A stretch of 53,549 nucleotides of DNA from Patescibacteria group bacterium. GTDB taxonomy: Bacteria > Patescibacteriota > Patescibacteriia > Patescibacteriales > WJLG01. The position numbers and the translations under genes were made by a program. The notes under the pieces are model-generated. The model had not been told where the DNA came from. It saw only the letters and a list, made by a program, of their open reading frames with translations, and made no database searches. The stretch spans positions 1 through 53,549 of the forward strand of contig JAQUPS010000009.1 of NCBI GenBank assembly GCA_028716485.1. Direction: 5' to 3'. Every line of letters begins with the position of its first letter. Position 1 is the first letter of the stretch. This document shows positions 32,451-53,549 of the stretch, piece after piece.

Positions 32451-33012
32451 AATTTCAGGGCAAGCGGACAGCCGCTTTTTTCGGTTTTTATCGAAAAGGG
32501 AGGAAAGTCCGGACTTCTCCCGCACCTTTTAAGCAGAAGCGCTTCGCGCTGTCGATTAAGACGCTGAATTAAAACAGTGAATGCGTTTGATGCGAATTTT
32601 ATTTCTTTTTCAAAAAAGAACTGCTTAAAAGGTGCGGGATAAATGATGGTGGATAACGTCCACAAACCGCAAGGTTATGGAAAGCGCCACAGAGACAATA
32701 CTAATCAACGCTTCGCGTTGAAATTTTAAAATATCAATTTTAAAGTTTTGGCGCGGAGTGTTGGTGAAAGGTGAAAAGTTTCAAGACGTAAATATTAGTC
32801 GTTGGGATATCCTGATTAAAATTTACCACTTGATTCGCTCCCGAGCGATCGGGATGCGTGGCAAGCCCCATTTGAAGCAAGAGCAAACCTGATTCGCAAG
32901 AATCAGAGGAACGTGGCTCGCTTGAGCTTGGCAGTAATGCCAACGCCAGATTAATGGCTGTCCTTTGCCGCAAGGTAAAGACAGAATCCGGCTTATAGCT
33001 TGCCTTGAAATT
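32451..33012 (+). ncRNA. rnpB: RNase P RNA with a large extra stem-loop
   Basis: Catalytic RNA that trims tRNA 5' ends. P1 is formed by AATTTCAGGGCAAGC (32451) and GCTTGCCTTGAAATT (32998). Conserved cores are seen: GAGGAAAGTCCGGAC near 32500, GAAAGCGCCACAGAGACAATAC near 32679 (quoted in parts: GAAAGCGCC, ACAGAGACAA), the GGCAAGCCCCATTTGAAGCA segment near 32860, and the 3' ACAGAATCCGGCTTATAG. At about 562 nt it is far longer than the usual 350-400. Much of the excess is a stem closed by CCCGCACCTTTTAAGCAG (32519) and its complement (~32622-32639), enclosing about 85 nt. Protein frames across it are spurious. Ends are estimated from P1. Confidence 0.93.
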
Positions 33013-51504: not shown

Positions 51505-51656
51505 ATTCAACGATTATTTGGAATATTCTGTATTGATCGCATTTAGACATTTAATAATATTACTTTGGCTGCTTTTGATTTGACTTTTTCTTAAATACCT
51601 GATAAAGTGTGAATTACAATTTACTATAACCTAAACTTTATAAGAAATTATAAAGC

Positions 51657-51770
51657 ATGGCTAAAATCCACATACATAAAGACGGTCTCCTTGATCGGTT
51701 CTATGTATGTGGTCAATATTCGAAAGGATATTGGGTTCGCAAGGACCGCCGATCGGGAGACCTTTTTTGT
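51657..51770 (+). ncRNA. Candidate structured RNA: pseudoknot with two GNRA hairpins and U-tract
   Basis: Four helices fit in about 100 nt. Stem 1: CCACATACAT (51668) with ATGTATGTGG (51703). Stem 2: GGTCTCC-TT-GATCGG (51684-51698) with CCGATC-G-GGAGACC (51749-51762), its 5' strand lying in the loop of stem 1. Between the strands are CAATATTC-GAAA-GGATATTG (51714-51733) and GGTTC-GCAA-GGACC (51734-51747), both closed by GNRA tetraloops. TTTTTT follows at 51763. Stem 2 with the T-run is terminator-like, so stems 1 and 2 form a pseudoknot or exclude each other. No known RNA family recognised. A 45-codon frame (51657-51794, MAKIHIHKDGLLDRFYVCGQ at its start) runs through it without a ribosome site. 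Together with flanks, this accounts for the 328-nt gap after 51504; nothing else is seen there. Confidence 0.55.
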
Positions 51771-51832
51771 TTTAACTGCTTAAAAATAGGCTAATTAAAC
51801 GATTTTATTTATATAAAATATAAAATATTTTT

Positions 51833-53549
51833 ATGAAAAAAATTTTATTATTGTCTTTCATTTTTTCTGCTTCGTTGCTTTTTTGCAATTCAGCTAAAGC
51901 GGACGAATCCTATTCTCACGTTTTAACATTGAGCCCGGGTTGGAATGTAATTTCCGTGCCCAGGGTTGTCGAAAATCATAGCTTTTCCGTTTCGGAAACT
52001 TTGGCCAATTTGATATTTATCTTTTGGATAACACCAAACCTTCCGGCTGGGCGACGATGGCGGATTTAGGGCAAACGGAATTTACCCCGCTTTACGGATA
52101 TTTTATCAATAATAAAACCGGTAGTGAGCAAACACTAACGGTTAATTATAAACAAAACGTCAGTCCGAGCGATAGATTGTTCAGTAGAAATATCACGGCA
52201 GGCTGGAACGTTATCGGCGTTGCCGATCCCGCCGACGCGCTCCGTCAGAAAGAAAATAATTCCACTGACACCAACAACATTCAATCTATTCTATCTTCCT
52301 TTGGTAATAATATCGATTCTGTTTTAGATTTTACCGCCGATCAGACTGATAAATCCTCGGTAAAAATAGGGGATAGTTGGGCATATAAGACAAATAACAA
52401 CCTCAATGATTTAAACGACCTCCGAGAAACAAAAGCTTATGCTGTTTATGTAAAAACGGCTGGCGTTTATCACGGTTATCAAAATAATGATGAAGTGAAA
52501 ATATACGAACCGGTTACTTTTTATAATTTGAAATCTGGGACAAAGGTGATTAATGAAAAAACGAAAGACGCGGTTTTGATGGAATTTTCCGTTTATTCCG
52601 GATACCCGGTCAATTTTTCTTTAAAAGGAGTAAGCGTTGAGCTTTGGTCGTATTATAATATGAAAAATTCGGATGTTGGCAATCTGCGGTTGGTCTGCAA
52701 TAATGAACAAAAAATAATCTTGCCATCGCCGGTAATAGGAATCAATTCTGTTTCAGCTTCATCGTCTTTGCCGGTCGGCGCTTCCGAGTGTAAACTGCTC
52801 GTCGATATTGGAGATATCGTTGATACTAATTATATTCAGGCGACAATACGAGGATTGGATAATCCGGATAATTGGAAAATTTTCGGAAATACAATTAGAA
52901 ACATAAGCATTCCGAGCGAAATAAGAGGGTATTGGGTTGAAGTGGACAAAAATATTCCTGTAACTGTTGCATTACATAAAACCGAAGCTGCCCATGACAA
53001 AGTTAATAAGAATCAAAATGATGTTGAGTTGGGCTCTATCAAAATTACTCCGAGCCCCAATGGAAATATTGAGCTTAGAGCTCTAAGGTTTAGTATTGCT
53101 TTCTCTGGTGCCACAACCACTCTTAATAATATCAAATTGATCGATGGGTCTACAGGTAATATTTATGATTTGACGTATTCTGGCGTAGACAAAAAATATC
53201 AAAATACTTCCTTGAATTTAGCGATACTTTCTAATACTACAAAGTCATTGGTTATTAGCGCGGATATTGGAAATACCGCTGTTGACGGAGACACTTTTAC
53301 ATTATCAATGGCTGATGCTACAACTGATTTGGATATTTATGATACCACCATTGATAAAAAAGTTATTGAAATTACCCCAAACGCCTTGTTTTTCAATCCA
53401 ATCACTATTCAAACTCCGGCTTTAACCTTCTCGATCAACCCGATTTCGACCGCGTTAAGCTCGGTTGTCGGCACTTCCGACATCCAGGCGATTAACTTCA
53501 ATATGAAGGCTAATCAGACCAGCGATTTGACGGTTAGCGAGTTGGATTT
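51833..53549 (+). pseudogene. Exported surface protein, frameshifted and cut by the window end
   Basis: A signal peptide (KKILLLSFIFSASLLFCNSAKA) is followed by a GWNVISVPRV module. The first frame stops at 52069, but from about 52012 the frame one base over is open to the last base of the window (about 512 codons): it starts DIYLLDNTKPSGWATMADLG, includes a second GWNVIGVADP module, and continues with beta-rich repeats (ALRFSIAFSGATTTLNNIKL, LVISADIGNTAVDGDTFTLS). One missing T in AATTTGAT near 52008-52011 restores a continuous protein. It may be a natural frameshift, phase variation or a sequence error. Likely an S-layer or adhesin-like surface protein. Confidence 0.75.

Follow-up and report, generated by a model that had tools for sequence, protein, structure and literature searches.

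LOOT RNA as a candidate transcription attenuator before accessory genes of Patescibacteria and their mobile elements

The window, i.e., the whole 53,549-nucleotide stretch of a Patescibacteria contig (JAQUPS010000009.1) that was analysed here, carries near its end a member of the orphan RNA family LOOT (Rfam RF03000), directly followed by a gene for a surface-type protein. Comparison with relatives across the phylum indicates that LOOT is probably a cis-acting transcription attenuator, that is, a leader of accessory genes, which in the window would control the surface gene at 51833. What is new concerns the family as a whole, which is best read as a putative cis-acting attenuator that often precedes cargo genes belonging to mobile elements and phages of Patescibacteria. 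The orphan RNA thereby becomes a testable regulator: its terminator strand and its alternative hairpin are defined, and a gene follows immediately.

In Rfam, LOOT has the type "Gene; sRNA", and the model ends upstream of two features described below, the 3′ strand (T3) of the terminator helix and the U-tract. A leader role for LOOT was not found in the literature searched for LOOT RNA, LOOT motif, and RF03000, a scope outside of which lies the source of the family, reportedly a 2017 paper. In the available parts of three papers (PMC7657543, PMC7779021, and PMC11701678), LOOT figures as a structure entry to which no function is given, and the terminator helix, the leader position, and the mobile context are new with respect to these parts.

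The LOOT element of the window and its fold

The Rfam search with Infernal that had been proposed along with the original prediction, which was made from the sequence alone, assigned positions 51628-51747 of the forward strand to RF03000 with 81.2 bits (E-value 8e-14), well above the gathering cut-off of 46.4 bits; the earlier statement that the RNA fits no family was thus wrong. The match covers model positions 1-121 at full length, and the locus displays the same four stems (P1-P4) as the Rfam family together with its conserved CCUAA, AUGG, and GAAA motifs, which correspond to invariant columns of an alignment of 60 sequences described below. When a 151-nt region of the window was folded, its minimum free energy (MFE) of -45.6 kcal/mol compared with -29.5 kcal/mol for shuffled sequences (z -4.2) and was lower than in 200 out of 200 dinucleotide shuffles. 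The structure is genuine and adds a member to an orphan family that was already known; the genome of the window contains one copy.

All parts of the locus lie on the forward strand. A putative promoter read from the sequence consists of TTGACT (51580-51585) and TAAAGT (51603-51608) separated by a 17-nt spacer, with a predicted transcription start around 51615. The RNA had been predicted to span from 51657; the helices of that prediction stood but its start did not, as the element begins 29 nt further upstream with stem P1 (51628-51662, Rfam alignment). P1 contains a receptor-like internal loop, CCUAAAC (51630-51636) opposite GCAUGG (51655-51660), and an apical stem formed by 51636-51642 with 51649-51655. 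It is followed by P2 (51668-51712), whose lower stem of 11 bp (10 in the original prediction) pairs 51668-51678 with 51702-51712 according to folding and the Rfam alignment. P2 encloses a switch region of 23 nt (51679-51701), which holds an inner hairpin (51683-51697; 51683-51687 with 51693-51697) identified from its MFE relative to shuffled sequence and considered a candidate anti-terminator. The same loop also holds T5 (51684-51698), the 5′ strand of the terminator helix, as recognised from tail-loop pairing and covariation. P3 (51714-51733) is a hairpin of 8 bp (51714-51721 with 51726-51733, Rfam alignment) closed by a GAAA loop at 51722-51725, and P4 (51734-51747) one of 5 bp (51734-51738 with 51743-51747) closed by a GCAA loop at 51739-51742, where the Rfam model ends. 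Outside the model follow T3 (51749-51762) and the T-tract TTTTTT (51763-51768), together occupying 51749-51768. T5 and T3 can form a terminator helix of about 13-14 bp with one bulge. The four predicted helices, the two tetraloops, the terminator strand trapped in the loop of the first predicted helix (here P2), and the six T after the terminator helix were thus all recovered.

Predicted terminator helix and alternative pairing across the family

For comparison, 153 LOOT places scoring at least 46 bits were collected from genomes of the window's phylum; a further 11 of the 164 places found scored below 46 bits and are excluded from all counts out of 153. In most relatives, a GC-rich stretch and a T-tract follow the last model position, and some members have odd or missing tails (e.g., G280_C42, G404, and G250_C22). 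When the tails of 148 loci were paired with the P2 loops, the duplex of a locus with its own tail had a mean energy of -27.8 kcal/mol, compared with -19.1 kcal/mol when tails were swapped between loci and -16.5 kcal/mol when they were shuffled, and at 58% of the loci the own tail outdid at least 95% of 60 swapped tails. The T5:T3 helix was also recovered unprompted by a scan of column pairs in an alignment of 60 sequences (taken out of 99 candidates), with, for example, 100% of sequences paired where 50% was expected. Over ten T5:T3 pairs of this alignment, 91.0% of the cells are paired, and nine of the ten pairs have changed on both sides, in a total of 101 such cells. Their covariation score of 0.630 compares with 0.286 for shuffles and at most 0.227 for slid versions; as the ten pairs were picked in this very alignment, the comparison with slid versions is biased towards them, which does not apply to the swap test.

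The inner hairpin of P2 is conserved as well: in the 145 of the 153 places that were analysed, the inner segment has a mean MFE of -5.8 kcal/mol, compared with -2.0 kcal/mol after shuffling. On average, T5 takes up 74% of the paired bases of this hairpin (144 loci with a hairpin), and because of this overlap the two pairings are mutually exclusive. By layout, the T5:T3 helix and the inner hairpin would be a terminator and its anti-terminator. Judged by sequence and covariation, LOOT hence presents the features of an attenuator, namely a terminator helix and U-tract before a gene, exclusive with an alternative hairpin. The notion of a regulatory RNA with two exclusive states therefore holds as far as the exclusive pairings and the leader position are concerned, both of which are conserved family-wide.

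The folded domain may be further compacted by a tertiary contact. The 11-nt GAAA tetraloop receptor has the sequence CCUAAG/UAUGG (PMC11381326), of which LOOT shares CCUAA and AUGG in the P1 internal loop. The loop reads CCTAAAC/GCATGG in 81 of the 153 places and CCTAACC/(G or A)TATGG in another 43, so that, unlike in the 11-nt receptor, the usual G-U position is altered in these two groups. The exact receptor occurs in a single one of the 153 places (G081_C100, as CCUAAGU/AUAUGG). The LOOT variants CACGG and CCUAAAC resemble the UACGG mutant and the A insertion CCUAAAG of the receptor that are covered in the available part of PMC11381326. On the side of the tetraloop, the GAAA columns of P3 are invariant in the 60-sequence alignment, and GAAA is present within the last 50 nt of 152 of the 153 LOOTs, some of which may represent the P4 loop; the P4 loops vary across relatives. 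Judging from motif and conservation, P3 probably contacts the internal loop of P1 through its GAAA tetraloop. Unusual cross-covariations in LOOT are mentioned in the available part of the CaCoFold paper (PMC7657543).

Position before genes and rival explanations

The Rfam type would suit a trans-acting sRNA that is made from its own promoter, ends in a pseudoknotted terminator, and lies near genes only incidentally, and LOOT does come with its own promoter-like sequence and terminator: within the 40 nt that precede it, ACAATT occurs in 72 places (7 in shuffled sequence) and TATAAT in 40 (14 in shuffled sequence). The position of such an RNA should be independent of the downstream gene, yet 149 of the 153 places are followed by a same-strand ORF (40 aa or longer) whose start codon lies at a distance of 10-260 nt, and in 133 of them this distance does not exceed 100 nt. 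Longer ORFs (100 aa and above) follow LOOT in 119 of the 153 places, versus 54 in the mirrored upstream control. Simple ORF calling puts the closest ORF after LOOT on its own strand in 134 places and on the opposite strand in 14 (some of which are probably false ORFs), and finds none in 5. Upstream neighbours, on the other hand, point either way (77 minus, 69 plus, and 7 none). The spacing is tight, with a median of 37 nt between the U-tract and the start codon (quartiles 29-44; 125 of the 133 near starts, the remaining 8 being without a recognised tract), which is too short for a separate downstream promoter. The order of a unit would thus be promoter, LOOT, terminator, and gene. Since a same-strand ORF follows closely while the upstream genes face in both directions, LOOT behaves as a cis leader, and the sRNA explanation is improbable. 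The expectation that the RNA of the window lies upstream of a gene for an exported protein was likewise borne out: the gene at 51833-53549 (forward strand) has a signal-peptide-like start, encodes a large surface-type protein without a Pfam match, and runs off the contig, and the position before a gene is conserved across the family.

A constitutive role is also conceivable, in which T5:T3 belongs to one permanent pseudoknotted fold and LOOT acts as a leader terminator that is always active or as an RNA-stabilising 5′ end. The lower stem of P2 and the terminator helix use different bases and could coexist; nevertheless, the conservation of the inner hairpin beyond chance and its overlap with T5 are what would be expected of a two-state element, and we regard a permanent fold as unlikely. 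Processive antitermination RNAs such as the put RNAs of phage HK022 offer another comparison, according to which LOOT would modify the polymerase for the whole cargo operon. In line with this, LOOT stands 5′ of cargo comprising several genes in phage-type elements, such as the type I restriction operon of L308 (see below), but it carries its own terminator right after the folded domain, which makes this possibility decidedly improbable. The chance that the stretch is instead a small protein gene is close to nil. An open frame of 45 codons (51657-51794) does exist in the window, and it had been named as the alternative in the original prediction; among the relatives, however, the frame is not conserved, with 15 of the 153 places having no ATG and the other 138 giving a median of 16.5 codons, 98 of them stopping before the end of the tail.

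Attenuation in cis, the preferred reading, would proceed as follows. A promoter just upstream would start the transcript about 10-20 nt before LOOT, upon which the four stems, including the inner hairpin of P2, would fold first and probably adopt a compact shape through the docking of the P3 GAAA loop. The emerging T3 would then draw T5 out of the P2 loop and break the inner hairpin, and the long GC-rich T5:T3 helix before the U-tract would stop transcription. If the folded domain were held by a ligand, a protein, or another factor, T3 could not pair in time, and the polymerase would carry on into the gene located about 35 nt downstream. The comparison of the relatives suggests that LOOT may be an on/off transcription switch before the accessory genes of very small bacteria and their integrated viruses. 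Like riboswitches and other attenuators, LOOT combines a folded domain, exclusive anti-terminator and terminator pairings, a U-tract, and a gene directly downstream. Unlike with most riboswitches, the downstream genes are accessory and share no common pathway. The word "riboswitch" does not occur in the main text of either PMC12911398 or PMC12455944.

Downstream genes, mobile context, and distribution

The proteins encoded downstream were compared with Pfam for 146 of the 149 places, three with TTG starts being excluded. The most frequent domains were Zn_ribbon_3 (8), SNase (6), N6_N4_Mtase (5), Glucodextran_B (5), and DUF4352 (4), followed by trypsin-like proteases (3), D12 methylases (2), subtilases (2), and one C5 methylase; type III methylases account for 5 of the 146 genes. 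According to a crude rule, signal-peptide-like starts are present in 81 of 134 same-strand genes, compared with 500 of 1957 in the background. The genes that LOOT would control thus appear to be accessory and include exported or membrane proteins, secreted nucleases and proteases, DNA methylases, and restriction systems. An enrichment of defence genes is not claimed, as the control set of 147 neighbour genes (149 drawn, minus two that also lie downstream of a LOOT) contains defence genes as well.

To describe the surroundings, 2300 ORFs around the 153 places were clustered, with cluster membership assigned by BLAST. Large serine recombinases form the largest cluster, being present at 78 of the 153 places in 61 genomes; one representative was confirmed by Pfam and PHROGs, the rest being assigned by BLAST. 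In 60 of these 78 places, the nearest recombinase is located upstream and divergent. Within the phylum sample, a recombinase lies near 70 of 122 places, whereas at most about 4.8 would be expected from the per-genome counts, and it is carried by 76 of 83 genomes with LOOT versus 163 of 296 others (p 8e-11). The large terminase subunit was found at 16 places, the small subunit at 21, and a tyrosine integrase at 13, and any integrase, recombinase, or terminase is near 94 of the 153 places; in the window's own order, a mobile-element gene is nearby in only 11 of 31 places. Two IMG/VR contigs also carry LOOT. On L308 (90.9 bits), one strand encodes a serine recombinase, the large and small terminase subunits, and a ParB-methylase, and the other strand carries LOOT followed by a trypsin-like membrane protein, hsdM, hsdS, and hsdR. 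On L221 (93.8 bits), LOOT precedes a zinc-ribbon membrane protein, and the terminase genes are on the opposite strand. Both contigs are fragmentary and possibly represent parts of prophages. A tRNA (L308:41-127) adjoins the serine recombinase of L308 and represents a possible attachment site.

Accessory genes of temperate phages that are transcribed apart from the phage genes are known as 'moron' loci (PMC7067206, PMC6469090, available parts). LOOT units are similar to morons in that they have their own promoter-like sequence and terminator and are often divergent from the recombinase. They differ from morons in that every cargo unit begins with the same structured leader RNA. To our knowledge, no shared structured leader of phage cargo units has been described, and a shared leader RNA of this kind was not found in the literature searched. 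Many of the genes behind LOOT seem to reside in integrated mobile elements or prophages, so that LOOT resembles a standard leader for the cargo of phages. We tentatively propose, as a possibility rather than an expectation, that LOOT represents a first class of leader RNAs devoted to the cargo of Patescibacteria phages and integrative elements, namely a compact attenuator folded through a tetraloop and its receptor that moves between elements with changing cargo and lets unrelated accessory genes answer one common signal. If true, restriction systems, secreted nucleases and proteases, and surface proteins would respond to, for example, the lysogenic state or the condition of the host. The signal sensed by LOOT could show how phages and hosts control accessory genes, and LOOT could serve as a tag for cargo genes of phages infecting Patescibacteria, a huge and mostly uncultured bacterial branch.

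LOOT was detected in 21 of 98 relatives of the window's genome, and in 21 of 111 genomes across the whole order. In a phylum-wide sample of 379 genomes, 83 carry LOOT, each in one to seven copies; 14 well-known control genomes gave no LOOT. This patchy and multi-copy occurrence suggests mobile DNA. A pattern scan of named genomes returned 63 stretches from Patescibacteria groups, MAGs named "bacterium", and two Omnitrophota, and all 15 that were scanned with Rfam proved to be LOOT, both Omnitrophota included. These two LOOTs (L267 and L271, 70 and 90 bits) come from MAGs named Omnitrophota and may reflect misbinning or transfer. Pattern scans of IMG/VR yielded 34 stretches (10, 23, and 1), with 2 LOOTs among the 23 scanned with Rfam. 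A blastn search of INPHARED with one LOOT as the query returned no match, and the L221 terminase has distant matches among deposited phages, all under 60% identity. In one genome (G206), three contigs (L165, L166, and L192) end in a common LOOT stretch of 141 nt with different genes on the far side, and identical LOOT copies about 3.5 kb apart precede different cargo. Elsewhere (L084, G012:C40:53173-53651), two divergent LOOTs are separated by about 210 nt close to the end of a contig. The idea of a mobile cassette with LOOT as the recombination site was dropped, the excess of LOOT near contig ends being slight (KS p 0.04, 133 contigs of at least 10 kb).

In the window, the 51 kb that precede LOOT were searched with relatives of the LOOT-neighbour clusters, and no gene for a recombinase, an integrase, or a terminase came up; the contig ends 1.8 kb after LOOT, and the one PF07508 recombinase of the genome is on another contig. 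The neighbours of the element are a CAP-domain protein and a WecG/Nudix protein. In the one other genome of the same genus that was searched (G001), LOOT is absent and the CAP relative has different neighbours. The GC content drops from about 0.44 to 0.36 at the window LOOT. The window copy may thus either sit in a piece of mobile DNA that is not seen whole or now be a chromosomal leader. Around 52010-52069, the surface gene changes frame: its first ORF (51833-52069) overlaps a second frame that begins at 52024 and continues as far as the contig does. The gene may be broken or frameshifted, or the assembly may be in error here. Positions 53423-53549 of the window, its final 127 nt, recur unchanged at the end of a further surface-type gene of this genome, located on contig C7 (L325); the contig breaks at a repeat that the two surface genes share. 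The only other Rfam match of the window at cut-off is a bacterial RNase P class A RNA (32456-33011, 156.5 bits), which spans 556 nt compared with the 367 positions of the model and thus contains long insertions.
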